Shown here: positions 8,465 through 45,103 of the stretch, in pieces
Layout: each line of letters begins with the position of its first letter
Numbering within the stretch: position 1 is the stretch's first letter
Assembly (NCBI GenBank): GCA_017505465.1
Contig: JAFVPE010000023.1
Location: 1 to 64,000, forward strand
Source of the DNA: Clostridia bacterium
Lineage (GTDB): Bacteria; Bacillota; Clostridia; Christensenellales; Borkfalkiaceae
Direction of reading: 5' to 3'
DNA: 64,000 nucleotides
The notes under the pieces: model-generated
Database searches by the model: none
What the model saw: the letters and a program-made list of their open reading frames with translations, nothing else
What the model was told of the DNA's origin: nothing
Translations under genes and position numbers: made by a program

Positions 8465-10087
8465 ATGAAAAAAAACTTAACAAAGATGATGGCAGTACTT
8501 TGTGCATTGACGGCATGTATGCCGTTTGCTGCGTGCACAGGAGCTACTGGCGGAGTTGAAATTGATAAGACCAAAACACAGCTGTACGTTTCCAACTTTA
8601 ACGGTGGTGTAGGGCACAATTGGTTGGATGCACACATTGCTCGTTTTGAAGCAGACTATGCAGAAACGGAATTTACGCCCGGCAAAAAAGGTGTACAGGT
8701 TATCGTTTCCAACCACAAGAAAGGTATGGTAAACATCGGTGGTTCAATGAAAAAAGCAAAAGAGGAAATTTATTTCCTTGAAAAAGTTAACTATCACGAC
8801 GAAATTGCGCAGGGCAGATTCCTTGATATCACCGATATGGTAACAGAACCTTTAACGGAATTTGGGGAAACGGAGACGATTGAAGATAAGTTGTACCCTT
8901 CTCAAAAAGAATATTATAAAGTAAATGGCAGATATTACGGCTTACCTCACGCACAGTCGCCTACACTCATTACCTATGATGCAGATTTATTTGATCAAAA
9001 GAAATTGTTTATGGGCGAGGATGGGGAATTTAAATATACGTCCACCGCTACGAATCTTTCCAAGGGCGTAGATAACGTAAAGGGAACGTATGACGACGGT
9101 TTGCCCGCTACGTACGAAGAATTTTTCTCACTTTGCGCAACGATGAAAAAGCGTGGTGTAGACCCGATTATTTGGTCGGGTATGTACGAATGGTACACCA
9201 CGAGATTTGCGAAACAGCTCCGCGCAGACTTTGATGGGGAAGAAGCTACTGTTTCTTACACCTTTAACGGTACGATGAGCCATATCGTAGATACCATCGA
9301 TAAGAATGGCAATATTACTTATAAAGATCCTGTGGTAATTACCGAAAATAACGGCTACGAAGTATTGTCTTCCGCAAGTTATTATTATACCTTCAAGTTC
9401 ATTGAAGAGATGTATAACGGTAAGTATTATTCCAAATATGCAATCAATGAAAACGTATCGCACGGCGACGCGCAGGCGTATTTCTTGAAGAGCCGTTTCA
9501 CTTCCGAAACGGACATCGCAATGCTTATCGAGGGTTTGTATTGGGTAAATGAAGCAAGCGGAGCATTCAAGAGTATGTCTTCCTACCAAGGCTCATCCTT
9601 GCAGGAAAGAAACCTTAAAGTTATGCCTTTACCCAAAGCGACGGCAGAGCAAGTAGGAGAGCAGACGACAATTGTTGACTCGCTCAATCAGCTCGCATTT
9701 ATCTCTGCATACATCGACGAAAGCAAGAAAGAACTTGCAACGACATTCTTGCAGTACTGTACGACGCAAGCTTCTTTAGAAGAATTCCTTCTTGAAACGG
9801 GCTTGACGCGTAACTATAAAATTGATTATTCCAAAGTATACGATAATTTGTGCCCTTATTCCAAGAGCGTAGTAGATCTTTTGGCTAGCAGCAACTATAT
9901 TATGCCTGCTTCGTCTTCTCCGATTATTCAAAAGAACTATGAAGCTTTTGTTGGCGATTATGAAATCGGTACGACGAAATATGCGGAACCGATTAACGCA
10001 ATCCGTGCGAAAATTTCTGCAGTGGATTTCTTTAATCAGTTTAGAAGTAAATATGACGCAAATAGCTGGAAGGCATTACTTGGTTAA
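8465..10087 (+). CDS. Extracellular solute-binding lipoprotein of a sugar ABC importer (module 1)
   Basis: A 540-aa protein with a lipoprotein signal peptide: basic start, hydrophobic core and lipobox FAAC, with Cys24 as the lipidation site. The mature part resembles family 1 solute-binding proteins of carbohydrate importers. It would capture an oligosaccharide outside the membrane and deliver it to the two permeases encoded next. The gene at 33825 is a close paralogue; both begin the mature protein with a TQLYVxNFxGG segment and share a long central region. AGGAGGG provides a strong RBS 8 nt before the ATG. It is the first gene of a long operon read from the promoter at 8309. The ligand cannot be deduced from sequence. 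Confidence 0.9.
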   Translation: MKKNLTKMMAVLCALTACMPFAACTGATGGVEIDKTKTQLYVSNFNGGVGHNWLDAHIARFEADYAETEFTPGKKGVQVIVSNHKKGMVNIGGSMKKAKEEIYFLEKVNYHDEIAQGRFLDITDMVTEPLTEFGETETIEDKLYPSQKEYYKVNGRYYGLPHAQSPTLITYDADLFDQKKLFMGEDGEFKYTSTATNLSKGVDNVKGTYDDGLPATYEEFFSLCATMKKRGVDPIIWSGMYEWYTTRFAKQLRADFDGEEATVSYTFNGTMSHIVDTIDKNGNITYKDPVVITENNGYEVLSSASYYYTFKFIEEMYNGKYYSKYAINENVSHGDAQAYFLKSRFTSETDIAMLIEGLYWVNEASGAFKSMSSYQGSSLQERNLKVMPLPKATAEQVGEQTTIVDSLNQLAFISAYIDESKKELATTFLQYCTTQASLEEFLLETGLTRNYKIDYSKVYDNLCPYSKSVVDLLASSNYIMPASSSPIIQKNYEAFVGDYEIGTTKYAEPINAIRAKISAVDFFNQFRSKYDANSWKALLG

Positions 10088-10149
10088 TTTTTAGTTTCTT
10101 TGATTTAACAAACGGATTCATTTCATAAAAGTAGTAAAAGGACGTATCT

Positions 10150-11058
10150 ATGAAACAGGCTTTTTCTCAAAATAGAAAAAAACACGACATTATCTTTTGT
10201 TTGTTGGTGTTGTTAGTGCCGATGGTGCAATTTGCAATCTTCTACATCGGTGTTAATATCACTTCCTTGGCAATGGTATTTCAAAAATATGAGGTGGATC
10301 CAATTACCAACCGCGGTGCGTATATTTTCAATGGGTTGAATAACTTTAAGGATATGTGGTTCCAAATTGAAAATGAAGGCGTATTCGGTACGGCGTTGAA
10401 AAACTCTTTGTTGGCATTCGTTATGATTACGTTGGTAGGAATAACCTTTGCGCTTATCTTTTCCTTATATATTTTTAAGGAAATGCCGGGCGCAGGTATG
10501 TTCCGCGTGCTTTTATTTGCACCATCTATTCTTTCGGCGTCAGTAACGGTTACCATTTATAGATTCTTTGTGGAAGGTGCAGTTCCCGTAATTTTCGGCT
10601 TGGAACAAGGTTTATTGGGGAATGCGGAAACAAAACTTGGGACGATTATATTCTTTAACATTTGGATTGGCTTTGGTACGCAGATTTTAATGTATTCAGG
10701 CGCAATGAACGGCATTGATCCTTCCATTACGGAAGCAGCGAAACTGGACGGCGCAAATCCGTTTGTGGAATTTTTCTATATAATTTTGCCTTTGATTTTT
10801 CCGACAATTCAAACCTTCTTGGTAACGGGTGTAGCTGGGATTTTTATCAACCAAATCAACTTGGTCGCATTCGAGGGATTTGGTGCGGAAGGTCAGTATA
10901 TGACGGTGGGGTACTATCTGTTCAAAAACACAGAAAGCGCAACGCAATACGAATATCCGCTTTTGGCAACTTACGGCGTGGCGTTGACTTTGATTGCTGC
11001 ACCGCTTACCTTACTTACTCGTAGGGCTTTGGAGAAATTTGGCCCGTCGGTAGATTAA
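10150..11058 (+). CDS. Sugar ABC transporter permease, UgpA/MsmF-like (module 1)
   Basis: A 302-aa inner-membrane subunit with about six transmembrane helices. The cytoplasmic EAA loop reads EAAKLDGANPFVEF followed by LP at about residue 194, the docking site for the ATPase. It follows the binding-protein gene by 62 nt and precedes its partner permease by 15 nt, so the three act as one importer. No ATPase gene is present in the cluster, which is usual for Gram-positive CUT1 systems that share one MsmK-type ATPase. The paralogue is at 35530. Confidence 0.92.
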   Translation: MKQAFSQNRKKHDIIFCLLVLLVPMVQFAIFYIGVNITSLAMVFQKYEVDPITNRGAYIFNGLNNFKDMWFQIENEGVFGTALKNSLLAFVMITLVGITFALIFSLYIFKEMPGAGMFRVLLFAPSILSASVTVTIYRFFVEGAVPVIFGLEQGLLGNAETKLGTIIFFNIWIGFGTQILMYSGAMNGIDPSITEAAKLDGANPFVEFFYIILPLIFPTIQTFLVTGVAGIFINQINLVAFEGFGAEGQYMTVGYYLFKNTESATQYEYPLLATYGVALTLIAAPLTLLTRRALEKFGPSVD

Positions 11059-11073
11059 CGGGAGGTGTGCAGT

Positions 11074-11973
11074 ATGAATAAAGTAAAAAAATTCTTTCAA
11101 AAGAAGCAAATTTCCGTTTTTTCAATTATTAGCTTTATTTTCTTGTTTGCTTATGCGATATCTTTGATATTCCCGTTGCTTTGGTCTTTAATGACTTCGT
11201 TTAAAGACTATTACAACGACTATCTCGTGAATAGTTTTGGGTGGCCGAAGGAATTTGTATTTGAAAACTACATAACTATTTTCCAACATTTTATTGCGCC
11301 AATGGAAACGGCGGATGGGCTTGAGGTTGAAGTGGGAATGGGAGTTATGCTATTGAACTCCATTTGGTACTCGCTCGGCACGGCTATTGTATCTACGATT
11401 ACATCCTTCTTGGTTGGATACGTCGTTGCAAGATTTCGTTTTAAATTTTGCGAAATAATTTATACGGTCATCATTTTGCAAATGATCATTCCTACCGTCG
11501 GTACGTTGCCGTCGGAATTGCGTATGGCACAGTCTTTGGGGTTATACAATACCGTGTACGGCATGCTATTTATGAAATCGTACGTAACGGGTTTGTATTT
11601 CTTGTCCTTCTATGCGGCGCTTCGCGTTATCCCCAAGGATTTTGCGGAGGCTGCGTATTTGGATGGCGCAGGTAATTTTAGGGTAATGGTAAGCATTATG
11701 TTGCCAATGGCTTCGGGGGTATTTTCCACCGTGCTTTTGCTTAATTTTATCGCATTTTGGAACGATTACCAAACGCCCATGATTTATATGCCTAGCTTCC
11801 CGACGCTTGCATACGGGCTTTGGTATTACGTAAACGGCTCCTACGATTTGGAAACGAGTACCGTTCCAATGAAATTGGGTGGCTGTATGTTGATGGCAAT
11901 GCCTTTACTTATTATTTTTATCATTTTCCAAAAGAAGTTGCTCGGCAATGTTTCTATTGGCGGATTAAAGTAA
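11074..11973 (+). CDS. Sugar ABC transporter permease, UgpE/MsmG-like (module 1)
   Basis: A 299-aa permease with about six transmembrane helices and an EAA loop (EAAYLDGAGNFRVM) near residue 191. The C-terminus KKLLGNVSIGGLK is typical of the second CUT1 permease. The ATG at 11074 is preferred because GGGAGG lies 8 nt upstream; a GTG at 11065 overlaps that site and is rejected. It pairs with the permease encoded just before it. The paralogue is at 36468. Confidence 0.92.
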   Translation: MNKVKKFFQKKQISVFSIISFIFLFAYAISLIFPLLWSLMTSFKDYYNDYLVNSFGWPKEFVFENYITIFQHFIAPMETADGLEVEVGMGVMLLNSIWYSLGTAIVSTITSFLVGYVVARFRFKFCEIIYTVIILQMIIPTVGTLPSELRMAQSLGLYNTVYGMLFMKSYVTGLYFLSFYAALRVIPKDFAEAAYLDGAGNFRVMVSIMLPMASGVFSTVLLLNFIAFWNDYQTPMIYMPSFPTLAYGLWYYVNGSYDLETSTVPMKLGGCMLMAMPLLIIFIIFQKKLLGNVSIGGLK

Positions 11974-11996
11974 CAAAAACGGAGTGAAATAAAGAA

Positions 11997-14798
11997 ATGA
12001 AGAAAAAAAGTATCATAACCTTACTTCTTTCAACGTTGATGACAGCTAGCGTTGCTACGGGTATAGCGATTACGGCGGGTGCGAACGGCAGCGAAAAAAC
12101 GAAAGAGCCGCTTGCACAAAATACGCAAACGACAGTTTCGAAAGGGAATGCGGCGTATACGGTAGGGAAAGAGGACTCAGTTGCCGTATACGGTCAAGAT
12201 AACAACTCCCCGGTAATGGGTATTAAAGCGACGCTTGCCCCTGATGATGCGCTGACCTTTCATAACGTTATCGATTTAAATGAAATGTATGAAAAGGGAG
12301 AATCTTTTCTCGACTTGCTTCCCATTGTTGAGGAAGAAGGCGTTGCAGAATATAAAGGAATGTTTATCGAAGTGGTGGACGCTTACGATCCCACAAACTT
12401 TTTGAAAATTAAAATTAACTGTATGCCGCAAATGGAAGATTCGTCTACAACGTCCTATTTCCTTGCCGGTGCAAGCAATGGGCAAAAGTTGACGGGCTAT
12501 GAGGTTGGTTCTGGTAAATTGCACGTCAACAACGAATACGGCGAATATTCCGTTTTCGCATTCGGCGACGTTATTCAGCAATATAGCGGGGCAGGATTTT
12601 TCTACGATGTTATTAAAAACACAATAAGCGTTGTGGATTATAGAGGAGTCAAAAAACAAATCATCGATTTGGACGATCCTGCGTATTTTGGTATGAATAT
12701 ATGGTCGGGCTTTACGACGGGTGAAGTATATTGTCGTATAAAGTGCGACGACTATAAGAAGGATGCTGCAAGCTTTTTGGTTACAAAATACGGTAACTAC
12801 GACTTGACGAATCCCGAAATTTGCGATGAGGTGGCGCCTGTTATTAAGGTGGATTACGGTGCATATACAAAAGATACTGTGCCTTCTGCTCTTCTTAACC
12901 ATGCGTATCCTATTTTCCCCGTAACAACGACGGATGCATTGGACGGCGTATTGGAAACGGAAGTGAAAGTATATATGAACTATCACTCCTCAAACCCCAT
13001 GTCTGTCAACGTGAAGAACGGTATGTTTACCCCGAAGATGCCTGTGCCTTACACAATCGTATATTCGGCGACAGACGCACACGGAAACGAAAGTCGAGAA
13101 GTATTGCAAATCAACGTTATTAACAGTATTGATGATATAGTGATTGACTTTGCCGAGTTTGTGGAAACAACCGTAGAAGGCGACTTGTATGCACTTCCTG
13201 CGTATACGGTAAACAATGCAATGGGCTGCGCAAACGTAACGGTGGACGTAACGCTCAACGGCAAAGCTTTGGAAATTGAAAAGGGCGCAGTTAGACCTTT
13301 TGTGGAAGGTGAAATGAAGGTGTCCTACAAGGTAGTTGACTACATTGGGAGAAGCTGTGAAACGAGCTTTTCTGTAAACGTTGAAGCGGCAACGAAGCCT
13401 ACCTTTATTGAAACGCCTATTTTGCCTAACGCATTTATCGCAGGCAATAGCTACGTGCTCCCCAAGCTTGATGCATACAACTATGTAACGGCGCAAGGCG
13501 ATGCAATATCTACGGAAATTTACGTAAAAGAGGGGAGCGACGTGAAGTTGCTCGTAGACGGCGAATACGTGCCTTCCAACGTAGCGGAAACGGAAATTAT
13601 TTATAAGGCGAAAATTGGTGATGCAGTCAACGAATATTCTGTGTCTATTCCCGTTTACAACGTAAGAACCGAAGAAGGCTTGGATATGGCGAAGTACTTC
13701 CTTGGAGGTGCGAATACGAGCGTATCAGCTCAATTCAACGGCGTGGACTTGACGGCAACGGCGGACGCAAAATTCGATTACATCAATTATTTGGCGGCGA
13801 TTTCGCTTGATATGGAATTCTCGCTCGGTCAACAACCGAAAAATGCGGAAAAAGTACACATTTACTTAACGGATATTTCCAACCCGAGCAGAATGCTTAA
13901 ATTTACGTACGTATTGACGGGCACGCAAGCGTATTTCTACGTCAATGATGACGAAGCGGGTGCCGTACCCGTAGAAGGGGATATCGAGGCGGAAAAGAGA
14001 TTTTTCTTGAATTTTGTTGCCGACGAAAAGAAGGTATATTACGATATCGTAAACCGCAATATTCTTCCCGTTAGCACATTCTTGAACGGCGAGGCTTTTG
14101 AAGGCTTTACAAAAAATAGAGCATACGTGTCCTATGCGTTTGAAGGGGTAAAGGATAGCGCAACGATTAGCGTCAATGCAATTAATGGCAACTATTTCAG
14201 CGATGAAGTGGACGATTGGATTTCACCCCTTATCGATTTGGTTGGCAACGTTGGCGGAGAATATCTTATCAACTCGGTAGTAAGCTTGCCCGAGATTGTT
14301 GCAACCGACGTTATGGAAGGGGACGTGAAGGGTTATATTACGGTAACGTCGCCGAGCGGTAAAGTTCTTACGACGGTAGATGGAAAGAAACTGGAAAAGC
14401 TTTATTACGATGGTTCTAATTTGCAAGTCAAATTGGAAGAATACGGTTGTTACTCTGTGGAAATAACAGCAGAAGATACCGCAGGAAACTCTGCATTTAT
14501 TCCCACCGTTCTTTGGGTAGTGGATACGGAAAATCCTTCATTCACTCTTTCCAAGGAAGTGGCGACGACGGCAAAGGTTGGTGCAAAAATCACTCTTCCC
14601 ACAGTAAAAGCGACGGATAACCTGTCCGAAAAAGTGCAAGTAACGGTTTACGTGATGGTTCCTGGCGGTAAAATGCTTGACGTTAGCAATAGCAAGGGCT
14701 TTGTTGCGAAAGTTGCAGGCGTATATACCGTGGTGTATTATGTAACGGACGATGCGGGAAATTTTGCGTCGGAATATTACACAATTAAAGTATCTTAA
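11997..14798 (+). CDS. Secreted multi-Ig-domain protein (module 1)
   Basis: A 933-aa exported protein with a Sec signal peptide (about residues 1-31, MKKKSIITLL start, cleavage near ITAGANG). It has two lectin-like beta-sandwich segments (about 60-270 and 560-740) separated and followed by Ig/cadherin-like domains, recognisable from repeated D-x-YG-x-YTVVYxATDxxGN endings like those of DUF5011-type bacterial Ig folds. No lipobox, LPXTG or SLH domain is seen, so how it stays on the cell is unclear. Its position between the permease and DUF4838 genes is conserved in the second module (37461), which suggests it helps present or bind the glycan. Enzymatic activity is not indicated. The start has the RBS GGAG 12 nt upstream. 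Confidence 0.8.
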   Translation: MKKKSIITLLLSTLMTASVATGIAITAGANGSEKTKEPLAQNTQTTVSKGNAAYTVGKEDSVAVYGQDNNSPVMGIKATLAPDDALTFHNVIDLNEMYEKGESFLDLLPIVEEEGVAEYKGMFIEVVDAYDPTNFLKIKINCMPQMEDSSTTSYFLAGASNGQKLTGYEVGSGKLHVNNEYGEYSVFAFGDVIQQYSGAGFFYDVIKNTISVVDYRGVKKQIIDLDDPAYFGMNIWSGFTTGEVYCRIKCDDYKKDAASFLVTKYGNYDLTNPEICDEVAPVIKVDYGAYTKDTVPSALLNHAYPIFPVTTTDALDGVLETEVKVYMNYHSSNPMSVNVKNGMFTPKMPVPYTIVYSATDAHGNESREVLQINVINSIDDIVIDFAEFVETTVEGDLYALPAYTVNNAMGCANVTVDVTLNGKALEIEKGAVRPFVEGEMKVSYKVVDYIGRSCETSFSVNVEAATKPTFIETPILPNAFIAGNSYVLPKLDAYNYVTAQGDAISTEIYVKEGSDVKLLVDGEYVPSNVAETEIIYKAKIGDAVNEYSVSIPVYNVRTEEGLDMAKYFLGGANTSVSAQFNGVDLTATADAKFDYINYLAAISLDMEFSLGQQPKNAEKVHIYLTDISNPSRMLKFTYVLTGTQAYFYVNDDEAGAVPVEGDIEAEKRFFLNFVADEKKVYYDIVNRNILPVSTFLNGEAFEGFTKNRAYVSYAFEGVKDSATISVNAINGNYFSDEVDDWISPLIDLVGNVGGEYLINSVVSLPEIVATDVMEGDVKGYITVTSPSGKVLTTVDGKKLEKLYYDGSNLQVKLEEYGCYSVEITAEDTAGNSAFIPTVLWVVDTENPSFTLSKEVATTAKVGAKITLPTVKATDNLSEKVQVTVYVMVPGGKMLDVSNSKGFVAKVAGVYTVVYYVTDDAGNFASEYYTIKVS

Positions 14799-14815
14799 TG
14801 GAAGGAGGAATGGTT

Positions 14816-16741
14816 ATGAAGAAAGCAAAAAGAATAATCGCTTGTTTACTTGCTGCGTTTTCTATGTTATCTGTATCGGCTCTTTCCGGATGTACAAAAA
14901 AGAAAGAAGATAAGCGCGGCGCACACTTGTCTGGAAGCTCTTTGCCGAACGTGGAAGGAACGGTGCACGAGCGTGCGGTAGGGACAACGAGCTATAAGCT
15001 ACTTAACAATGGTGTGTCAGATTACGTAATACTGGTAAATCAAGAAGATAAGGCTACGCTGGTAGAAGCAATTAGCGAATTACAAGCCATTTTTGGGGAA
15101 GCAACGGGGGTGCAACTGCCCGTTGTGACGGAAGGCGCGTACTCGGCGAATGCAAAATACATTTCCCTTGGCGATACGGAAGCGCTTAAAGGCTCCGGTT
15201 TTCAAGCGGATTACGCAAAGCTTGGTGCGCAGGGCTACCAAATCAAAACGGTTGGACAAAGCATTTTCATTTGCGGTCAACAGCGCGGCGTTTTGTACGG
15301 TGTATACGATTTATTAAAGATTCTTGTCGATTTCGAAACGTATACAACAACGATCGATTATATGCAAAAAGGGGTAAAGGATATTGACTTGCCCGATTTG
15401 AACATCAAGGAAGTTCCCGATATCGAATACAGAATCCCCGTGATGGGTGAGCAAATAAAAGATAGAGTGGCTTCGCACCGTATGCGTATGCACATTTCAT
15501 CGGAAGTGACGATTTCAATGGGTACTGCACATAACGTTTTGAAATATATCGTACCGATTGAAGAACACAAAGATACGCACGGTGATTGGTTCAGTGGCGA
15601 TAGAACGCAGCTTTGTTATACGGCGCACGGCAACGAAGAAGAGTATGAATTGATGGTACAAGAGGCTGTAACCAACATTCAAAAGATTTTGGATGATGCG
15701 CCTCATCAAAATATAATGTCCATTACGCAAATGGATGAACAAACGTGGTGCGAATGTACCGTTTGCCAAGATTTGGAAGACTATTACGGAACGAACGCAG
15801 CGTCGCAAATTTTCTTTGTAAACGACGTAACGGCGAGAGTGAAGGAATGGTTGGATACCGAACGCGATGGCAGAGAAGTACAGTTTATGTTCTTTGCTTA
15901 TCATAAGTCAGAGGGCGCTCCCGTAAGACAAAATGCGGACGGCTCTTGGGCGGCAATCGACGGGATTAAGGTAAACGATAACGTTTCAGTATGGATTGCA
16001 CCTATTTACGAGGATTATACGTTGAGCGTCACTGCTCCCGAAAGCGTCAACATTCGTATGATGTGTGAAAGTTGGCATGCTGTGGCAAACAGCTATTTCG
16101 TTTGGGCATACAACGTTTATTTTGAAAATTATTTGATCCCTTACGATTCTTATGCGGCTATGCAGGACCTCGTAAAATATTTCGTTATCCACAACACCAA
16201 ATATCTTTGGGTTCAGGGCAATTGGAACTTGAATCAAAATACGGGTTACGACGACTTGAAAGGGTATTTGTTTGCAAAGCTTATGTGGAATTGCAACTTG
16301 GACGTAAATGAATTAATTTCCGATTATTTCGATAAAGTATATCGGGAAGCGGCGGATACGATGGAAGGCACGTTCTGGACGTGGAGAGCGCATTCTGAAA
16401 TGCAAAGAGCGATGGGTAGAAGCGGTAATATTTACTCTTCGCCCAACGAAGCCAAGTATTGGCCGAAGCGTTACTTAATGAATCAGCTTGCGCAAATGGA
16501 AGAAGCAAAAAAGCAAATTGCGAAATATGAAGCGAGCGAGCCCGAATTGTATCAAGCTATATACGATTCTATCGTTTGTGAAACAATCAGTCTTCGTTAT
16601 CTCTTGATAACGCATCACGAAGAAACGTTTGAAAAAACGGAATGGGCTACATTGAAAGCGGAATTCAAAGCCGATGCAAATCGTTTGGATTTTAATATGC
16701 TCGCAGAACAAGTGAGCATCGAAAGTATCACGGAAAGGTAA
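14816..16741 (+). CDS. DUF4838 lipoprotein, glycoside-hydrolase-like (module 1)
   Basis: A 641-aa lipoprotein (lipobox ALSGC). Residues about 55-195 form the alpha/beta domain often found ahead of glycosidase barrels of the GH20/GH67 type (YISLGDT, GAQGYQIKT, GVLYGVYDLL). The rest is a DUF4838 domain with a TIM-barrel-like pattern. A conserved WCECTVC cluster places Cys at 312, 314 and 317. Family members are linked to glycan use in gut bacteria, but the reaction is not established. The start at 14816 is chosen because GGAGG lies 7 nt upstream; ATGs at 14798 and 14810 are in frame but poorly placed. The previous gene ends at 14798, so translation is closely coupled. Paralogues: 40515 and the C-terminus of 20076. 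Confidence 0.85.
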   Translation: MKKAKRIIACLLAAFSMLSVSALSGCTKKKEDKRGAHLSGSSLPNVEGTVHERAVGTTSYKLLNNGVSDYVILVNQEDKATLVEAISELQAIFGEATGVQLPVVTEGAYSANAKYISLGDTEALKGSGFQADYAKLGAQGYQIKTVGQSIFICGQQRGVLYGVYDLLKILVDFETYTTTIDYMQKGVKDIDLPDLNIKEVPDIEYRIPVMGEQIKDRVASHRMRMHISSEVTISMGTAHNVLKYIVPIEEHKDTHGDWFSGDRTQLCYTAHGNEEEYELMVQEAVTNIQKILDDAPHQNIMSITQMDEQTWCECTVCQDLEDYYGTNAASQIFFVNDVTARVKEWLDTERDGREVQFMFFAYHKSEGAPVRQNADGSWAAIDGIKVNDNVSVWIAPIYEDYTLSVTAPESVNIRMMCESWHAVANSYFVWAYNVYFENYLIPYDSYAAMQDLVKYFVIHNTKYLWVQGNWNLNQNTGYDDLKGYLFAKLMWNCNLDVNELISDYFDKVYREAADTMEGTFWTWRAHSEMQRAMGRSGNIYSSPNEAKYWPKRYLMNQLAQMEEAKKQIAKYEASEPELYQAIYDSIVCETISLRYLLITHHEETFEKTEWATLKAEFKADANRLDFNMLAEQVSIESITER

Positions 16742-16767
16742 ATAATAAGGAGGAATATAAATATATT

Positions 16768-26920: not shown

Positions 26921-26951
26921 CCCAAGCTATACTCGTTTGGTGGAGTTAGTT

Positions 26952-30023: not shown

Positions 30024-30029
30024 ACGTAT

Positions 30030-30058: not shown

Positions 30059-30102
30059 TAGGAAAAAACAAATTTGTAAAAGCAAAACGAGTATTTTTAT
30101 AA

Positions 30103-35510: not shown

Positions 35511-35529
35511 ACGATAAAGGGCTGATTTT

Positions 35530-36453
35530 ATGGCAATAAGAAAAAAGAGGAAAGGTTTACAAAATAATAGAAACGATTTGATATTTTATTGCATTATAAT
35601 GGCGTGGCCTGTATTGCAATTCGCCGTATTTTACATCGGCGTAAATTTCAATTCGATTTTGATCGCCTTTCAAGATATTGATATTGTAACGAATTCGTAT
35701 AGTTGGACGGCAAAGCATTTTGTCAACGGTTTTGAGAAAATGCTTTCGCCGACACAGTTGACAATGGCGAAAAATTCTATTTTGGCATATCTTATTACGA
35801 TATGTACAAGTATTCCGCTTGGTTTGCTTTTCTCGTATTATATTTACAAAGCGATGCCCGGCGCGGGAATATTCCGCGTTATTTTATTCATGCCTTCCAT
35901 CGTTTCTAGTATTATTATGGTTTCGATGTTCCGTTTCTTCACAACGGACGCATTTCCTGCGATGATGAGGGACTTCTTTGATATCACGATGAAAGCGCCG
36001 CTCGATGACAAATCCACCCGTTTTGGAACGGTAATGTTCTACAACATTTGGGTAGGCTTTGGTACGGCAGTGTTGATGTATTCCAATAAGATGTCGACGA
36101 TCGATCCGGCAATTTCAGAGGCGGCAAGTATCGAAGGCGCAAAAGGATTTAGCGAATTTTGGTATATTACGTTGCCTTTGGTATTCCCTACGTTGTCCAT
36201 CTTTTTGATTACGGGTATGGCGGGGCTTTTTACCAACCAAATTAACTTATTCTCTTTCTATGGCGTTTCCGCACCCGAATCGGTGCAGACGTTTGGATAT
36301 TGGTTGTTTAGAGAAGCAAAACGCGCGACGAAAGACGGCTTGGCAGGGTATTCGGAATTGTCGGCGATTGGGTTGCTGTTGACGTTTATCGCAGTACCCT
36401 TGACGCTTGGCATGAGAATGCTTATTGAAAAGCTTGGTCCGTCCGAAGATTAA
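35530..36453 (+). CDS. Sugar ABC transporter permease, UgpA/MsmF-like (module 2)
   Basis: A 307-aa permease with about six transmembrane helices and an EAA loop (EAASIEGAKGFSEF) near residue 196. It follows the binding protein by 19 nt and is the counterpart of the permease at 10150; both share FYIGVNxxS near the N-terminus and end in EKxGPS. The ribosome binding site is weak (AAGGGCTG). Like module 1, it has no cognate ATPase gene nearby. Confidence 0.92.
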   Translation: MAIRKKRKGLQNNRNDLIFYCIIMAWPVLQFAVFYIGVNFNSILIAFQDIDIVTNSYSWTAKHFVNGFEKMLSPTQLTMAKNSILAYLITICTSIPLGLLFSYYIYKAMPGAGIFRVILFMPSIVSSIIMVSMFRFFTTDAFPAMMRDFFDITMKAPLDDKSTRFGTVMFYNIWVGFGTAVLMYSNKMSTIDPAISEAASIEGAKGFSEFWYITLPLVFPTLSIFLITGMAGLFTNQINLFSFYGVSAPESVQTFGYWLFREAKRATKDGLAGYSELSAIGLLLTFIAVPLTLGMRMLIEKLGPSED

Positions 36454-36467
36454 GAGGGGTAGGTGTT

Positions 36468-37433
36468 ATGAAAATGAAAAGTGGCACCATAGGTCAAGTG
36501 CCTACAATTAATCAAAAAAAATCTCGGGGTTCTAAATCTCGTTTCACCCTACTGACAGTGCTCATGTTGGTGGTACTTATTGTTTATTCGCTTTCTTTAT
36601 TCGCCTTATTCTTCTACGGCTTTATTACAGCATTCAAATGTGGTAAAGTAGGTACGCTTGAATATAGATTGGAGTACTATCCGGGTAATTTATACGGACT
36701 TCCTAAGACGTGGTATTGGAATTTCGGCTTTGTATTCAAGAACTTTGTCGTGGAAGGTACGGATCCGATGGGGGTAGGGGCTCCCGTAAAAGTCGGGATG
36801 GTGCAGATGTTTGGCAACTCTATTTTATATTCTTTGGGTTGTTCTTTCTGTAATACGTTCGTTATGTGTCTCACGGCATACGGCTGCGCGAGATTCCCGT
36901 ATAAGTTCTCGAAGATCATTCACACAACGGTTATTATCGTTATGATCGTCCCCATCGTTGGTAATGCGCCGGCGGAGTTGGAAATGGCAATTCGCTTTGG
37001 GTTGTATAACCAAATTTGGGGTATGTGGATCATGCGCGCAAATTTCTTGGGAATGTATTTCTTGGTATTTTACGATATCTTTAAATCATTGCCTACCGCT
37101 TATACCGAAGCCGCAAAGATAGATGGAGCAGGCAATTGGGCAATCTTATTTCGGGTAATATTTCCGCTTATTGCGAACACGTTCCTTACCGTATTGCTTA
37201 TCACGTTTATTACGTCTTGGAACGATTACCAAATTCCCTTCTTATATTTGCCTTCTTATCCGACGGTTGCATATGGCTTATTTACGGTTGTAAACTCGAA
37301 GATTAAGGGGATGGAAACAACGCCTATGCGTTTGGCGGCGGCAATCATTATGCTTATTCCCATTTTAATCGTATTCCTTTGCACGCAAAAGCGTTTGCTT
37401 GGAAATCTTACGGTTGGTGGAGTAAAAGGTTAA
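36468..37433 (+). CDS. Sugar ABC transporter permease, UgpE/MsmG-like (module 2)
   Basis: A 321-aa permease with a 30-residue basic N-terminal extension compared with the module 1 counterpart (299 aa). It has six transmembrane helices, an EAA loop (EAAKIDGAGNWAIL) near residue 214, and the C-terminal sequence KRLLGNLTVGGVKG typical of the family. It starts 14 nt after the partner permease. Confidence 0.92.
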   Translation: MKMKSGTIGQVPTINQKKSRGSKSRFTLLTVLMLVVLIVYSLSLFALFFYGFITAFKCGKVGTLEYRLEYYPGNLYGLPKTWYWNFGFVFKNFVVEGTDPMGVGAPVKVGMVQMFGNSILYSLGCSFCNTFVMCLTAYGCARFPYKFSKIIHTTVIIVMIVPIVGNAPAELEMAIRFGLYNQIWGMWIMRANFLGMYFLVFYDIFKSLPTAYTEAAKIDGAGNWAILFRVIFPLIANTFLTVLLITFITSWNDYQIPFLYLPSYPTVAYGLFTVVNSKIKGMETTPMRLAAAIIMLIPILIVFLCTQKRLLGNLTVGGVKG

Positions 37434-37460
37434 TCAGTTTTGAATAAGGATCATAAATCT

Positions 37461-40400
37461 ATGAAAAAGAAAATTATCACAGGTATTGTTTGTGCAACGT
37501 TTGGATTGGTTGCGGCGGCTGGCGTTGTGATCGGTGCAAATAGCTTGTCAAGCAACGGAATTAATGCGGTTGCAGAATGGAACAACGAGGAAGTTACGGA
37601 ATCCTATTATCTTGGTGCGGAGTTTACGCTTCCCGAAGCAAAGCTTACCGTTGGGGATAAAACGGTGGATGCGGACGTGGCGCTTATTGCGCCCGACGGT
37701 ACTGCAACGCGCGCCGAAAAAACGGTGCTCAAACAAGTTGGTACGTACGTATTGAAATATTCGGCGATCATAGACGGTAAACCGTACGGTAAAGAAATTG
37801 CCTTTGACGTACGCGGTGATATCATCACGTATAACAACGAAGAGACGAAAATAGGGTATCAAACTTGTGCGTATGCTTCCGATCCGACCAAGGAATATTT
37901 TACGGTATCCTTGGCGCAAAGCGATACGATTACGTTTAGTCAGCTTATTGACGTTAGTGATATCACGAGAGATGATAAGTTGATTGATTTGTTTGTTTCG
38001 CCTGCAACGGAAGGCATTGCAGATTTCGACAATCTCTTTTATTTATTCACCGATTCGGCAAATCCTGATATTTATTTGAAGGTGCGTTTAAGACGATATC
38101 TGAAGAGATCGGGGACGGCATACTACCTTTCTGGCGGTAACGGACAAGAATTGAAGGGCTACGAAGCAGGATTGAATAAGTTGCACGTTAACGATGACTA
38201 CGGTGCACCGTTTACGAATATTTCTTTTGACGCAAAGAAAGGCGATGAGCCTGTTTTTGTGGATCAATGCACTGCGTCCTTCCGTTATGATGCGGCAACG
38301 AGAGCAACGTATGCAGTCGATTACAAAGGCGGCTTGACCATGATTATTGATCAAGACAGTACGCAGTATTACGAAAACCTTTGGACTGGTTTTCCGAGTG
38401 GAAAGGTGAGCCTTTCTATATGGGCGGAAAATTATAATTCCGCGAGTGCTACTTTCTGTATTACGAGTGTGCGCGGCATCGATCTTTCTGTGTATGGAGG
38501 CAAATTTGAAGAAAATACGCCTCCCGTGATTGACATCGATAGCGAGTACGAAACGATGCCTGAGGCAAAGCTTGGCGGCGCATATACAATCCCTAAGGCA
38601 ACGGCGATTGACGATTATTCTGGTATTTGCGACGTGGACGTTTCCGTGTGGTATAACTATGCGACATCCAATGCAATTCTTGTCGACGTAGCGGATGGCG
38701 CGTTTGTAGCGAACCGTAAGGGATATTATGCAATTGTCTATACGGCAACCGACCGTTATGGCAATCAGGCGCAGGAAGTATTGTCGGTACATGCAGGGAA
38801 TGAAATTCCTGAAATTCAGTTGGAACCCTTGTTCGCACCTGTGGAAAGCGCAATTCTTGGCGAATGGTTGACGTTGCCTAACGACTTTGCGATTACGGGC
38901 GGCAGTGGTAATAAGAACGTTACGATAACCGTTTCTAACGGCACGGACGTTTACGAGGTTGAAGGGGACGGATTCCGTCCGGAAACGATAGGGGATTGGA
39001 CGGTCCTTTATACGGCTACGGACTACGTAGGCGGTATGGGTACGTATACGTATAGTTTCAAAACGGAATTGCCCACACAGCCCATTTTGGTGGATTCTAT
39101 TACGTTGCCGCAAATCTTTATTTCGGCACAACCGTATGCAATTCCCGAAATATATGCGAATGATTATAGGTCGGGCGCATTAAAACGCGAGCTTTGCGAG
39201 GTTGAAGTAACGGATGCAACGGGCACAAATACGTATAAAGCAGGGGGCACGTTTAATCCTACGGTCAACGAAAACGGTGACAAGGTTTCCGTTTCGTTTA
39301 AGGCTGACGGCGTAACCTTAAAGAGCTTTGAAATTCCTACCATTTTGGCATGGGTAAGAGAAGACGGCTCTACGAGATTGCAAGAACAGAATTATTTCTA
39401 CGGCGAAGGCTTTACCACCGAAAAAACGGGGGAAGGCTTGAAAATTATTGCTGAACAGGAAAATGCAACGTGGACTTTTGCGAACGTATTGGTTTCGCAA
39501 GGCTTGAATATTGCGCTTATAGCCGAAAGCGGTGCGACAAACTATGACGGATATGAAATGACGCTTACGGATGCGGAAAACTCCGAAAATGCCATTCGTA
39601 TAAAAGTTGCAAAGAACGGTAATAAGGCGTTCTTTAACGTTTTCGGTTCTGATATTGATTGGGAAATATATTGCAATCTTAACGAAGAGAAACTCGAGAT
39701 TGGCTTTGAAGACAATTGCTTCTTGGTCAACGGAACGCCCTCTAAGGTTGAAAAAACGATCAGCGGCGAAGCATTTGAAGGATTTGCGTCCTCCAAGGTT
39801 TTTGCAAGCGTAAAAATGATTGATGCGGAAGCAGGCGCAGCGTATAAAGTTGTTTCCATTAACGGCAATCCGTTTACAGGTAAAACGAGAGACCAAGTTT
39901 CTCCGAACGTGACCATTTTTGGGGACTATGGCGGTACGTACGCCTTGAATTCGGAATACGTTGTAAATGCAGCGGTTGCAAGCGACGTGCTTTCGCCCAA
40001 CGTAAACTTCACCATGAGTGTAATGACGCCTAGCGGCAGTGTTGCTAAGGACGTAAACGGAAAAGAATTGCGTGCGGTAGATCCTTCTATTGCGTATACG
40101 ATTTTACTTTCCGAATACGGCCAATATACCGTAATGTATGAGGCGGCGGAAGATTCTACGTTCGCGCCCCGTCCCAATCCCTATAATTTCCTTGTCGGTA
40201 TCAACGTGGTTGATATGGAAGCGCCGGAAATCACGTTTGACGGTCAATTCCAAACGTCGGCAAAGGTGGGTGACGTATTGGTTATTCCTGATTTCACCGT
40301 TAGCGATAATTTATCGGCTGTAGAAGATATTATTGTGGCGAAATACGTATCCAATCCTTACGGTGGTTTCATCAAACTTATAAATGGTAACTCTATCAAG

Positions 40401-40496
40401 GTGGCTCATGCAGGAATTTACGAATTCCGAATCATCGCGATTGACGCAATCGGTAACGTAAAAATGATTCAAGCTTACGTTACGGTAACCGAATAA
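37461..40496 (+). CDS. Secreted multi-Ig-domain protein (module 2)
   Basis: A 1011-aa exported protein, paralogue of the 933-aa protein at 11997. It has a Sec signal (about 1-27), an N-terminal Ig-like domain (about 30-120, absent from module 1), a lectin-like beta-sandwich, then alternating Ig and sandwich domains ending with two DUF5011-like repeats (GVYT/GIYEF-type endings before the stop). Shared landmarks with 11997 include GYEAGLNKLHVNDDYG, VDYKG and TDxxGN. No membrane or wall anchor is seen. The ATG at 37461 follows AAGGATC; an in-frame TTG at 37440 lies upstream of that site and is rejected. Confidence 0.8.
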   Translation: MKKKIITGIVCATFGLVAAAGVVIGANSLSSNGINAVAEWNNEEVTESYYLGAEFTLPEAKLTVGDKTVDADVALIAPDGTATRAEKTVLKQVGTYVLKYSAIIDGKPYGKEIAFDVRGDIITYNNEETKIGYQTCAYASDPTKEYFTVSLAQSDTITFSQLIDVSDITRDDKLIDLFVSPATEGIADFDNLFYLFTDSANPDIYLKVRLRRYLKRSGTAYYLSGGNGQELKGYEAGLNKLHVNDDYGAPFTNISFDAKKGDEPVFVDQCTASFRYDAATRATYAVDYKGGLTMIIDQDSTQYYENLWTGFPSGKVSLSIWAENYNSASATFCITSVRGIDLSVYGGKFEENTPPVIDIDSEYETMPEAKLGGAYTIPKATAIDDYSGICDVDVSVWYNYATSNAILVDVADGAFVANRKGYYAIVYTATDRYGNQAQEVLSVHAGNEIPEIQLEPLFAPVESAILGEWLTLPNDFAITGGSGNKNVTITVSNGTDVYEVEGDGFRPETIGDWTVLYTATDYVGGMGTYTYSFKTELPTQPILVDSITLPQIFISAQPYAIPEIYANDYRSGALKRELCEVEVTDATGTNTYKAGGTFNPTVNENGDKVSVSFKADGVTLKSFEIPTILAWVREDGSTRLQEQNYFYGEGFTTEKTGEGLKIIAEQENATWTFANVLVSQGLNIALIAESGATNYDGYEMTLTDAENSENAIRIKVAKNGNKAFFNVFGSDIDWEIYCNLNEEKLEIGFEDNCFLVNGTPSKVEKTISGEAFEGFASSKVFASVKMIDAEAGAAYKVVSINGNPFTGKTRDQVSPNVTIFGDYGGTYALNSEYVVNAAVASDVLSPNVNFTMSVMTPSGSVAKDVNGKELRAVDPSIAYTILLSEYGQYTVMYEAAEDSTFAPRPNPYNFLVGINVVDMEAPEITFDGQFQTSAKVGDVLVIPDFTVSDNLSAVEDIIVAKYVSNPYGGFIKLINGNSIKVAHAGIYEFRIIAIDAIGNVKMIQAYVTVTE

Positions 40497-40514
40497 GGTG
40501 TGGGGGAATACAAT

Positions 40515-42500
40515 ATGAAAGGTAAAAAGATAATTTCTGCAATGCTTGCGGGATTGATGTTATTCAGTGCCGTAGGATGCAATGATTCTAATACAAACAA
40601 GGACGAAACGAACACCACAAAGCCTGTCGGTACGGTGCAGGACCGCGATAACGTCTATGTGGAAGGTATGTTGCACAAAGTCAACGTAACGCCCTCGAAC
40701 AAGGTTTTTGCGGAAAACAAAAAATCGGAATATAAATTTGTACTTGGGAATGAATCCAATGCAATTATCACCGCTTCCAACTTTATTTTTACGCACGTAA
40801 GAGAAGCTACGGGGGTTTCGCTTGATTACGCGGAAGAAGGTGTAACGTGGTCCGCGTCTGCAAAATATATCGTTCTTGGCGATAGCGAGATGTACAAAGC
40901 GGCAGGTCTTACCGTCCCCACAGACGATCTTGGTCCCGTTGGATATTACATTAAGACGGTGGGGAACTCCGTCTTCATTATGGCAAAAAATAAAGAAGGG
41001 TATCAGTTGGCGTCTATTGCATTTTTGCGTGCGCTGCTTGGCTATGATATGATTGCAGGCGACACCGTTATTTATGAAAAGGACGGAAAAACGTTGCCTA
41101 ATATGGATATCGTAGAAAGACCGGACTATGACGTTCGTGTCGTCACGAATGGTGGCATATCTCAGAATACAGCGTATGGTATGGGCTATTCGGCGGATAG
41201 GGGTATGATCTCTGTAGGCGGCGCATTCGTACATAACTCGTTTAATTATTTGCCCCCTGCAACTTACTTAGAGAGCAATCCTGAGTGGTACAGCGACGTT
41301 TTGTTGTCGGCAAACAATCAAGACTATCGCCAAATTTGCTATACGGCACATGGCAATGAAGAGTCTTACGACTTGATGCAAGACACCATTATCGACGTAA
41401 TGATGGATGCAATTATTGCAGACCCCGATAAGACGGTTGTTTCCTTTACCCAACAAGACGTAAATGCATATTGTAAGTGCGAGTCTTGCTTGGAAGCAAT
41501 GAAACCGTATGGCGTATATTCCGCTTTGATGATTATGTTCTGTAATGATCTTGCGGATAAATTGGACGTTGCGTTGACGCAATATGCGGAAACGACCGGA
41601 GAAGAAAAGAGAGATATTCAAATTTGCTTCTTCGCATATCACTTCTCGGAAGCACCTCCCGTTACGAAGAATGCGAAAGGGGAATACGAGCCTATCAACG
41701 GTTTGAGATGTAACGAGAACGTTGCCGTATTTATCGCGTCGATTGAAACGAAGTATTATTACTCGTTCTATGACGAAGTCAATGAAGTTTACGCGGAAAA
41801 TATGTATGGTTGGATGGCGATTACGGACACGATTTTGCTGTGGCTGTACCAAACGAATTTCGGGGAATATTTGTATCCGTACAATACGTGGAATACGCAA
41901 ATTGAAAACTATCGCTTTGGTAAGACGGTAGGGGCAAGATATATGTTCAGTCAAGGACAAGCGAACCATCCAAACAGTACGGGCTTTACGAAATTGAAGG
42001 AGTACATTGATTCGAAGGCTTTGCTTGACGTCAACGTGCAATACGATGAATTGGTGGATAGATATTTCAAGTATTACTTCATGGATGCGGAAAAGCCCAT
42101 GCGTCAATTTTTCGATGAATTGCAAGCGTATATGACTTATCTTGAAACGGAATACAGCACGGAGTTGACAGGTTACATCCGCGATTCGATTGCACAATCT
42201 AAATATTGGTCGCCTCGTACCATTCAACATTGGTTGGAACTTATTGACGAAGCGTATGCAGCTATCGAAAAATATAAATCAACCGACGTAAATTTGTACA
42301 ATAGATTGCACGAGCATATTATGCTAGAAGCTATGTTCCCCCGTTACGTAATGTGTACGTTACATACCGGTTTTATGTCTGCGGAGGCGTTGAAACAAAT
42401 GCGTCAGGATTTCTATATGGACGCAACGACTTTGCGTATCACGAACGTGCGTGAGGTTGACACACTTAGCGGTATTTATCAGACGTGGGGCGTTATTTAA
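40515..42500 (+). CDS. DUF4838 lipoprotein, glycoside-hydrolase-like (module 2)
   Basis: A 661-aa lipoprotein with lipobox SAVGC (Cys22). It has an alpha/beta N-terminal domain (YIVLGDSEMY, VGYYIKTVGNSVFIMA) and a DUF4838 region with the cluster YCKCESC (Cys 320, 322, 325), followed by a helical C-terminus. It is the counterpart of 14816 but more diverged; the HGNEExYxLM segment and the LWxQGxxN-type region are retained in both. The start at 40515 is set by GGGGGA 7 nt upstream. A glycan hydrolase role is inferred from family context only. Confidence 0.83.
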   Translation: MKGKKIISAMLAGLMLFSAVGCNDSNTNKDETNTTKPVGTVQDRDNVYVEGMLHKVNVTPSNKVFAENKKSEYKFVLGNESNAIITASNFIFTHVREATGVSLDYAEEGVTWSASAKYIVLGDSEMYKAAGLTVPTDDLGPVGYYIKTVGNSVFIMAKNKEGYQLASIAFLRALLGYDMIAGDTVIYEKDGKTLPNMDIVERPDYDVRVVTNGGISQNTAYGMGYSADRGMISVGGAFVHNSFNYLPPATYLESNPEWYSDVLLSANNQDYRQICYTAHGNEESYDLMQDTIIDVMMDAIIADPDKTVVSFTQQDVNAYCKCESCLEAMKPYGVYSALMIMFCNDLADKLDVALTQYAETTGEEKRDIQICFFAYHFSEAPPVTKNAKGEYEPINGLRCNENVAVFIASIETKYYYSFYDEVNEVYAENMYGWMAITDTILLWLYQTNFGEYLYPYNTWNTQIENYRFGKTVGARYMFSQGQANHPNSTGFTKLKEYIDSKALLDVNVQYDELVDRYFKYYFMDAEKPMRQFFDELQAYMTYLETEYSTELTGYIRDSIAQSKYWSPRTIQHWLELIDEAYAAIEKYKSTDVNLYNRLHEHIMLEAMFPRYVMCTLHTGFMSAEALKQMRQDFYMDATTLRITNVREVDTLSGIYQTWGVI

Positions 42501-42529
42501 GGTTAGCCAAGGCAAAAGGAGTCAATAAA

Positions 42530-45103
42530 ATGAAAAATAAAAAACTATTCATTCTTATGCTTGCTGTTTTGGCGACGGCTGCTTGTGCAGGCGCAGTGGG
42601 TTGTGAAAAAGAATCCAAGCCGTCGGTTGTGGTGAATATCCACCAAGAATCGGAAACGTTGAACGTGCTTGGTGAGACAACGCTTACTGTATCCACGGAA
42701 AATGCTACGGCAGACGTGGTGTGGAGCAGTTCGGACGAAACGGTTGCTACGGTAAAAGACGGTGTGGTTACGGCTTTGAACGTCGGAACAGTAACGATTA
42801 CGGCGAAAGTGAACGGGGTTAGTGATACCTGTGCGGTGGAAGTGGTCCGTTCGATGGAAGCTCCTGTTTTGAAAGTGAGCAGAACGGAAATATCCGTAGA
42901 GAAAAATGGAGAATATACGGTTTCGGCGTCCATTTATTGGTTGGGCGAAGACGTTACGGATAAAGTTCCGCTTCATTGGGAGCTTGGTGCAGGCGCGAAG
43001 GACGGCGTTGCAAGCGTAACGTCGGCAGAAAACGGAAAAGCGGTGGTAAAAGGCATTGCGGATGGCGAAACGGAATACTACGTATCGGCTACGGTTGGCG
43101 ATGTGTACGTGAACCAAAAGCTTTCCATTGCCGTTTGCGATAGCAGCGTTTGGTTTGAAAGCGACGAAATGGCAGTAGGCAGCAATGGTAAATTCTTATT
43201 CCAAATGAACTCGATAGATGCGGATGGGAACTCCATTGTGGCGGATACACCCATAATTAAGGCGTATACCAACGACGGGGAAATCCCGAACGTAAGCTAC
43301 GTTTGGACGAGTAGCGACGAATCCGTGGTAAAAATCGAAAACGGCAAATTTGTTGCGCAGCGCACGGGCGCAGTAGACGTCTATGGCGAATATGAAGGAC
43401 AAAAGGTTATCGTTACGGTATCCGTAGAGCCGTCTGTTATCCGCCTTGATCAAACGCTTACCTTTGAGTATGCGGATTTGAAGGCTGTGGCTTTGGACGC
43501 TCATACGTTCGGATCGGGTGAAGTGTATCTCGAAGAGAGCAAGATTGGCTTTTTAGAAAACGGCGAGATTATGTTGGAAGAGTCCAAGTATCCTACTGCA
43601 AGTAAGGAGCTCGGTAAGCGTGAGCTTGTTGCAAAGACCGACCAAGCAACGTATATTATTCCAACGAATTTATACAGTATGTATATTGAAACTGCGGAAG
43701 AATTGAGTGCTTGGCACGCGCATGCCTATGCGAATGGTGACGACGGCTACTATGCTCTTGCGAATCATATTGCATTCAACGGCACGTATACAGGCTCTCG
43801 CAATTGGGATAGTTCTGGCTATTATTGGGCGAATCCCGATACGACGGGCTTTAAAGGTATCTTTGACGGAAACGGTTATATTATTGACGGTTTGCGTATC
43901 GAAGAAGGATATCGCGGTTTCATTACCTTATTGCAAAGCACGGGCGTTCTTAAAAACGTATCGTTTATCAATGCTTCGCATTCTGCCAACAGCGCATATC
44001 TTTGCACGTGGGGATGCGGTACGATTGAAAACGTATACGTACAGTATGCAACAGACGGTGGCACGGGTAAGACCGCATTTGGCGGCGTGTTTATGTCGGT
44101 AGACCATACTCGTGGTATGACGAATAAAATGACGATTAAGAACTGCTTTGTGGACGCGAGCCAAACGACTTTGAGCCATTATAGACAGTCTTATATCGGC
44201 GGTTATATGAAGTATGACGGGACTGCGGGGGCTTGGATTCACGCCGGTGCGTATGCGAAACTTCAAGACGTGTACGTGGTAGCGCCTGCAAAAGTAGTAG
44301 GCGGCTCGGATGCAATGTTCATCTACAACGACGTAGTAGAAGGCAGTGCAAATTACGGTATGTATACTTCGGCGGAAGAAATGGCGGCGGATAGTGCGGT
44401 GCAAACGCACATAGCTGCATGGGATAATTCCTTCTGGGGCGTGAAGAACGGTATGCCTACGCCGCTTAGCGTTATCGAGCGTGGCGATCCGTTGGCGGTT
44501 ACGATCCCTGCGAGCAGTGCTTATTACACGTTTAAAGGCGGTATGTCGGTATATCCCGGTGAAGATTATACCTTCACGGTGACGCCCAAGAATGCAGCTT
44601 TGTCGAATTTCTTCGTTACGGCGAATGGCGTGACGTTGACGCCTGTAAACGGTATTTACACGGTTAGTGACGTACAAGGCGCTTTAGATATCGACGTGGT
44701 GCACGGCTACGTTGAAGTGCGTTCGGCGTCCACGACGGCTACGTATGAGGCGGATACGGATACTTGGAAACTGTCCAAGGCGGTATTTGCTTCGTATGAA
44801 GGGGTGAGAGATCACGGCGATGCTTATATTTCCAAGGAATATATAGAGAGTATGATGTCGCAAGGCTATACGAAGGTGCAGTTCACCATTCAACCGGACG
44901 GTGTATATGCGGTACAAGCTTGCTATAAATACAACGGATCCACTCGTCTGGCAACGACTACGGGCGAAGCTGTCTTGGCAACGATTGACCTTACTGTGGC
45001 TTCGGAATTGGAATTCTGGGGGCAGAATAGCGCTGGTTCGGGCAATGCAATTAGAAATGAAGATTGCTATGTAACGATTACTGGGTTAACCTTCCTCAAA
45101 TGA
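42530..45103 (+). CDS. Lipoprotein with Ig-like (BIG2) domains and one beta-helix module (module 2)
   Basis: An 857-aa lipoprotein with lipobox GAVGC (Cys near 24). A BIG2 domain follows immediately (about 35-115, VVWSSSDETVATVKDG), then further Ig-like domains to about 310. A single Ig-plus-beta-helix module is centred near residue 386 (IETAEELSAW, FDGNGYIIDGL, TIENVYV). A beta-rich C-terminal domain (about 660-857) is not present in the module 1 paralogue. The start is set by AAAGGAG 9 nt upstream. It probably binds glycan at the surface. It is the last gene of the conserved six-gene block. Confidence 0.8.
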   Translation: MKNKKLFILMLAVLATAACAGAVGCEKESKPSVVVNIHQESETLNVLGETTLTVSTENATADVVWSSSDETVATVKDGVVTALNVGTVTITAKVNGVSDTCAVEVVRSMEAPVLKVSRTEISVEKNGEYTVSASIYWLGEDVTDKVPLHWELGAGAKDGVASVTSAENGKAVVKGIADGETEYYVSATVGDVYVNQKLSIAVCDSSVWFESDEMAVGSNGKFLFQMNSIDADGNSIVADTPIIKAYTNDGEIPNVSYVWTSSDESVVKIENGKFVAQRTGAVDVYGEYEGQKVIVTVSVEPSVIRLDQTLTFEYADLKAVALDAHTFGSGEVYLEESKIGFLENGEIMLEESKYPTASKELGKRELVAKTDQATYIIPTNLYSMYIETAEELSAWHAHAYANGDDGYYALANHIAFNGTYTGSRNWDSSGYYWANPDTTGFKGIFDGNGYIIDGLRIEEGYRGFITLLQSTGVLKNVSFINASHSANSAYLCTWGCGTIENVYVQYATDGGTGKTAFGGVFMSVDHTRGMTNKMTIKNCFVDASQTTLSHYRQSYIGGYMKYDGTAGAWIHAGAYAKLQDVYVVAPAKVVGGSDAMFIYNDVVEGSANYGMYTSAEEMAADSAVQTHIAAWDNSFWGVKNGMPTPLSVIERGDPLAVTIPASSAYYTFKGGMSVYPGEDYTFTVTPKNAALSNFFVTANGVTLTPVNGIYTVSDVQGALDIDVVHGYVEVRSASTTATYEADTDTWKLSKAVFASYEGVRDHGDAYISKEYIESMMSQGYTKVQFTIQPDGVYAVQACYKYNGSTRLATTTGEAVLATIDLTVASELEFWGQNSAGSGNAIRNEDCYVTITGLTFLK

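Follow-up and report, generated by a model that had tools for sequence, protein, structure and literature searches.

A putative six-gene glycan-harvesting cassette, copied long ago, in a family of Christensenellales-type Clostridia

The 64,000-nucleotide stretch of DNA analysed here (the window; contig JAFVPE010000023.1 of Clostridia bacterium assembly GCA_017505465.1) carries two copies of a six-gene module, module A at 8465-19857 and module B at 33825-45103. Both share the gene order binding lipoprotein, permease, permease, immunoglobulin-like (Ig) protein, DUF4838 lipoprotein and Ig/beta-helix lipoprotein, numbered here as genes 1 to 6. The module is probably a standardised cassette for harvesting glycans, belonging to a Clostridia family of the Christensenellales type, and a form of Gram-positive polysaccharide-utilisation locus (gpPUL), duplicated long ago and with copies that have since diverged. 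An initial annotation of the window had proposed a Gram-positive glycan-utilisation unit with a DUF4838 lipoprotein, which is supported. It had also described the module as present twice; the order and the 12 open reading frames (ORFs) were borne out, but the count is too low, as the 1.66-Mb genome holds six. In what follows, C-numbers denote contigs of this genome (the window being on C20) and L-numbers denote loci in other genomes.

Module architecture and conservation of gene order

All genes of the two modules in the window are on the + strand. Module A starts with a carbohydrate ATP-binding cassette (ABC) substrate-binding lipoprotein, A1 (8465-10087), for which the SBP_bac_1 match is borderline (25.3 bits for a cut-off of 26) and which is 35% identical to B1. 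The ABC permeases A2 (10150-11058) and A3 (11065-11973), both matching BPD_transp_1, are followed by a secreted Ig/beta-sandwich protein with a Big_3_4 match, A4 (11997-14798), a candidate surface glycan-binding protein. A5 (14798-16741; PF16126, 1.4e-36) is the DUF4838 lipoprotein and a predicted glycoside hydrolase (GH), and A6 (16768-19857) is a beta-helix-like lipoprotein matching Big_2. In module B, the A1 homologue B1 (33825-35510) is a substrate-binding lipoprotein with a lipobox visible in its sequence. It is followed by the permeases B2 (35530-36453), 45% identical to A2 and weakly matching MalF in NCBIfam, and B3 (36468-37433), matching BPD_transp_1. The Ig/beta-sandwich protein B4 (37440-40496), 31% identical to A4, gives a full-length match to the gene-4 profile; B5 (40500-42500; PF16126, 1.2e-39) is the DUF4838 lipoprotein and B6 (42485-45103) the Big_2/beta-helix-like lipoprotein. 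Pfam recognises none of B1, B2 and B4, whose identity was assigned through homology to their partners in module A.

Corresponding proteins of the two modules are homologous over most of their length, with alignment z-scores of 25 to 123 relative to shuffled partners and blastp E-values from 1e-92 to 1e-22. Global identities for genes 1 to 6 are 34.7, 45.4, 40.6, 31.3, 29.1 and 27.1%, in agreement with the earlier description of the pairs as homologous but clearly diverged. Six homologous genes in identical order and on the same strand make a chance arrangement untenable. Searching the genome with profiles of genes 1, 2 and 4 located one further module on each of contigs C25, C24, C40 and C41. 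In each of the six the genes run 1-2-3-4-5-6 on a single strand, with intergenic gaps mostly below 70 bp, and the length of gene 6 is strongly divergent in the C40 and C41 modules. Pseudogenes in the C24 module were considered and rejected, the TAA/TAG flags being confirmed neither by a better profile, which gave no such flags, nor by the open ORFs.

The same six-gene order was found in many other genomes, as the initial annotation had proposed to check. When loci were chosen by their gene-2 permease, 42 of 80 had the full order and 16 more, truncated at an end, were consistent with it. Among 40 loci hand-picked down the gene-4 match list, the full order was present in 30 and genes 1 to 5 in six more; DUF4838 directly follows gene 4 in all but one of them (39/40). 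The gene-4 profile matched 85 of the 151 genomes sampled from this family, in 12 of 18 genera and with up to seven matches per genome, the weak ones among which may be Ig proteins only. At a stricter gene-4 threshold, seven of 200 genomes in the order sample matched, with full-length matches in two further families, and the class sample returned the own genome only, plus one partial Ig match; both samples include few members of the genome's own family and scoring was limited to the top candidates, so a missing match in them does not prove that the gene is absent. Relatives in a named collection are metagenome-assembled Clostridia genomes from herbivore and chicken guts, including Candidatus Borkfalkia, which the NCBI taxonomy places in Christensenellales, and Candidatus Scatosoma. 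Two variants were also seen: in L083, L084, L096 and L097 the DUF4838 gene and a long gene-6 protein precede both permeases and further genes come after these, and in Pumilibacter muris (L133) and its relatives L127, L129 and L149 genes 1 to 3 are followed by a protein of about 536 residues with a weak gene-6 match, which replaces genes 4 to 6.

Predicted roles of the six proteins

In the mechanism we propose, the products of genes 4 and 6, together with giant proteins encoded next to the modules, would retain a glycan on the cell surface, where the gene-5 protein, judging by the fold of its model, would cut it into oligosaccharides. These would be captured by the gene-1 protein and imported by the products of genes 2 and 3, as their families suggest, with a single MsmX/UgpC-type ATPase encoded elsewhere, on contig C27, presumably driving the import. 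Cytoplasmic enzymes encoded beside the cassette, in the window X8, X10, B7 and B8, would then complete the breakdown under the control of an AraC-type regulator. The whole cassette would have been copied long ago and the copies, of which six remain here, would have diverged, most likely to serve different glycans.

For gene 5, searching the sequences of solved structures with DUF4838 gave only weak matches to GH67 and GH20 N-terminal domains, and the fold was therefore compared. The A5 model (pLDDT 92.5) matches the GH115 alpha-glucuronidases best (Z 18.0 over 494 residues at 4.1 Å), covering most of the protein; GH84 comes next, and GH67 and GH20 are in the Foldseek list. On this model, DUF4838 is a glycoside-hydrolase fold like those of GH115, GH84, GH67 and GH20, and the contrast drawn in the initial annotation, of DUF4838 being used instead of classical secreted hydrolases, is misleading. 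The likeness extends to a GH67-type N-terminal domain, recognised in A5 by Pfam, but identity to these families is just 10-15%, and gene 5 differs from them in having Asp313 together with a Cys-rich C-x-C-x2-C motif. Across 51 gene-5 sequences the residues Asp313, Cys318, Tyr368, Trp426 and Tyr438 never vary, and His245, Cys273, Cys320 and Cys323 are almost invariant. In the open-access literature searched, DUF4838 is named in a single paper and its Pfam number in none. GH163, the family of a characterised Bacteroides enzyme, is a possible CAZy name for it; no paper linking the two names was found.

Alternatively, the gene-5 lipoprotein might be a non-catalytic glycan binder within a hydrolase-fold family, leaving cleavage to other bacteria or to the giant proteins. 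Such a role would fit the barrel part, in which a single carboxylate is invariant and no two-carboxylate pair was recognised. However, divergent copies share four conserved cysteines as well as invariant Asp, Tyr, Trp and His, which suggests that an active site has been kept, and we regard a purely binding role as unlikely.

Genes 4 and 6 appear to encode surface proteins. Across 48 modules (42 complete modules of other genomes and the six of this genome), a lipobox-like motif is present in gene 6 in 47, in gene 5 in 45 and in gene 1 in 45; gene 4 mostly has no lipobox but a signal-peptide-like start. The gene-4 model (pLDDT 87) is all-beta and multidomain, and its secondary structure suggests two larger beta-sandwiches and several Ig-like domains. 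A fold search returned nothing beyond generic Ig-repeat proteins at very low TM-scores and so says nothing about function. That genes 4 to 6 serve mainly adhesion or surface architecture, with the ABC importer an independent neighbour, would be in line with the gene-4 model being closer to adhesins, S-layer and other Ig-repeat proteins than to any one binding protein, and with gene 6 and the giants being repeat proteins. It is harder to reconcile with the co-evolution of genes 1 to 5 (see below), the order kept across the family and the glycosidase fold of gene 5, and appears to us improbable, more so than a non-catalytic gene 5.

The products of genes 1 to 3, a binding lipoprotein and two permeases without an ATPase in the operon, have the composition of a type I carbohydrate ABC importer with a shared ATPase. 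The gene-1 proteins have weak matches, far below cut-off, to N-acetylglucosamine/chitobiose- and carbohydrate-binding families. None of the six modules contains an ATPase gene. The sole TOBE_2 ATPase of the genome is encoded on contig C27 and scores 461.9 bits, above the UgpC cut-off of 432; it would power the importers of all modules. In Bacillus subtilis, MsmX powers several ABC importers of similar make-up, among them YtcQ-YtcP-YteP, likewise a binding protein and two permeases without an operon ATPase that relies on a shared ATPase encoded elsewhere (PMC5730181). In contrast to the cassette, its operon has no surface proteins corresponding to genes 4 to 6, and its substrate is pectin oligosaccharides.

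Evolution of the modules and the giant fusion proteins

One tree was calculated for each gene from the same 48 modules. For a given module, the closest foreign module is the same in all, or nearly all, of the six gene trees. Module A is nearest to L108, then to L126, in all six trees, and module B to the group L077-L081, mixed with L092 for gene 5. For the other modules, C25 is nearest to L101, C40 to L116/L122 and C41 to L155, and C24 falls with L101, L105 and C25. Tree distances of genes 1 to 5 correlate between genes at 0.64-0.83, compared with at most 0.29 with permuted labels. The trees thus indicate that modules have been inherited or exchanged as units, and that A and B stem from an older split, an old whole-module paralogy. 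This split may reflect an ancient duplication with loss or whole-module transfer between species; the trees are compatible with both. The initial annotation had held that separate assembly would show itself in corresponding genes having different distant relatives. A and B do differ in this way, but within each module the nearest relatives are alike gene by gene, so separate assembly is rejected and unit inheritance favoured. A viral origin was also considered and rejected, as a search of viral contigs with the permease gave no relative.

The old block duplication of the initial annotation thus holds in that diverged modules have been inherited as whole blocks, but not as a single duplication from A to B. 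A local block duplication in this lineage, giving B directly from A or the reverse, could account for six homologous pairs in the same order and on the same strand about 14 kb apart, yet it is refuted by the trees, barring extensive gene conversion from outside that replaced all six genes, and we give it almost no weight: the A-B distance ranks 22-30 of 47 in every gene, with more than 20 other modules between A and B in each tree; an A+B clade is rejected by approximately unbiased (AU) tests in the four genes tested (p-AU 2.8e-150 for gene 1, 1.9e-4 for gene 2, 8.5e-6 for gene 3 and 3.1e-4 for gene 5); and module A is 76-80% identical to L108, from another genome, in genes 2, 3 and 5.

About 13 genes of this genome encode DUF4838, among them those for giant secreted proteins of 2,261 to 3,035 residues that adjoin the modules of C20, C24, C25, C40 and C41. 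The one in the window, X7 (20076-26861, + strand; DUF4838 7.7e-47, Big_2), is a 2261-residue secreted protein in which gene-6-like repeats are fused to a DUF4838 domain. It lies between the modules and is related to A6 and A5, to which it is closer than module B is. Its DUF4838 domain groups with A5, L108 and L126 (support 100), and identity of the repeats to A6 reaches 53%. The C41 giant groups with gene 5 of its own module (support 96), and this grouping with genes of the own module makes both X7 and the C41 giant look like fusions built from the adjoining module. The giants outside the window, of 2,388 to 3,035 residues (C25:61665-70661, C24:9971-19078, C40:14408-23254, C41:51657-58823 and C32:6881-14473), are unusually large for a 1.66-Mb genome; of these, only the one on C32 lies away from a module, as far as its surroundings were read. 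None of the giants showed an LPxTG motif.

Neighbouring genes and comparison with known systems

A1 to A6, X7 and X8 are co-directional up to a terminator-like hairpin (29117-29140), at which the gene for an AraC-family regulator converges (29157-30071, - strand; HTH_AraC, AraC_binding). X8 (26937-29093, + strand) is a DUF6259 protein (PF19773, 1.6e-26) in which no signal peptide was seen and is probably a cytoplasmic glycosidase. Beyond the regulator, a perfect sigma-70-like promoter with an extended -10 (30288-30316, + strand) precedes X10 (30354-32246, + strand), a GH5-type (Cellulase) glycosidase (PF00150, 8.5e-06), again with no signal peptide seen. It is followed by a GFO/IDH/MocA oxidoreductase, X11 (32299-33528, + strand). 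Module B probably has its own start, as a hairpin followed by T residues was read by eye 3' of X11, around 33620-33646. Upstream of module A, a possible promoter-like site (11/12) is located at 8309-8337 (+ strand). Since the totals of promoter- and terminator-like sites in the region are not above chance, the transcription units are tentative. No Rfam elements were found in the window.

Module B is followed by a perfect 19-bp palindrome (45129-45169), found nowhere else in the genome and possibly a terminator or mRNA-end hairpin. It separates B6 from B7 (45193-46161, + strand), another GFO/IDH/MocA oxidoreductase, after which B8 (46186-46944, + strand) encodes a NagB-like protein of the glucosamine-6-phosphate deaminase family (PF01182; NagB models below the equivalog cut-off). 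X11 and B7 weakly match glycoside/disaccharide 3-dehydrogenase families (BT_2158, BT_2159), and perhaps a 3-keto-glycoside route exists beside the modules. Further away, 3317-8035 (- strand), beside module A, encodes a 1572-residue helicase-nuclease with DUF4011, AAA_11/AAA_12 and an MTES_1575 endonuclease domain that resembles a stand-alone defence protein. At 50497-51156 lies a gene for a GDSL lipase-like protein with additional matches to phage tail-fibre families, and a ribosomal protein cluster (L3, L4, L2, S3, L5, SecY, adenylate kinase) occupies 52000-63066, directly downstream of the glycan locus.

AraC regulators adjoin modules on C20, C25 and C41. The enzyme genes next to modules include a NagB-like gene for B, GH31 on C24, GH2 on C40 and C41, and a debranching-like gene on C41. 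These neighbours suggest different sugars and no common substrate, and a different substrate for each module would be the simplest reading. For module B, the NagB-like gene and the weak matches of the binding proteins hint at amino sugars.

Several points weigh against the interpretation as a glycan-harvesting cassette. The substrate is not readable from the neighbours, which vary from locus to locus. Besides Asp313, no second conserved carboxylate was found in the barrel part of the 51 gene-5 sequences, and no partner residue for standard two-carboxylate catalysis was recognised. Finally, gene 6 tracks the other genes weakly (correlation 0.25-0.44, at or somewhat above the permutations).

A gpPUL is defined as a locus combining a degrading enzyme, a transporter and a regulator (Sheridan et al. 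2016, PMC5320581). Each module has a binding protein and two permeases as its transport system, and the AraC gene of the window, like those on C25 and C41, provides a regulator. For the enzyme, DUF4838 with its glycosidase fold and the GH5-type and DUF6259 proteins are candidates by fold and family. Going by the fold of its predicted enzyme, the locus would fit this definition. With the gpPULs of that study it shares an ABC importer for carbohydrates and a regulator of the AraC type, next to an enzyme predicted to degrade polysaccharides. Those loci have a variable enzyme content and no recognised surface binding protein, whereas the cassette has a fixed six-gene core, a dedicated Ig/beta-sandwich surface protein, DUF4838 and six copies in this one genome. 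Glycan binding in the organisms of that study was proposed to occur through carbohydrate-binding modules of the enzymes (PMC5320581); in the cassette, gene 4 would be the candidate binder. No description of the cassette was found in the open-access literature.

The Sus-type polysaccharide-utilisation loci of Bacteroidetes combine surface binding, surface cleavage, import and a neighbouring regulator, with many diverged copies per genome. In outline the cassette would work in the same way, but with an ABC importer in place of SusC/SusD; no homology was found, and no protein of the locus has a Pfam match to a SusC/SusD pair. Gram-positive gut bacteria are not known to have a recognisable conserved core comparable to SusCD, and their glycan loci are therefore annotated individually. 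The cassette could be a Gram-positive counterpart of Sus, a fixed and copyable unit with gene 4 as its surface glycan-binding protein and the DUF4838 lipoproteins as its founding enzyme group, and its amplification and divergence around one shared ATPase would determine which glycans a family of gut Clostridia with small genomes can live on; we put this wider proposal at slightly below an even chance. A fixed six-gene core would allow glycan loci to be recognised in the genomes of hundreds of uncultured Clostridia from their sequence alone. For DUF4838, it would suggest a specific role and supply orthologous groups that can be tested directly on glycans. The order shared across the family suggests a standard sugar-harvesting unit that has been copied and adapted to different sugars.

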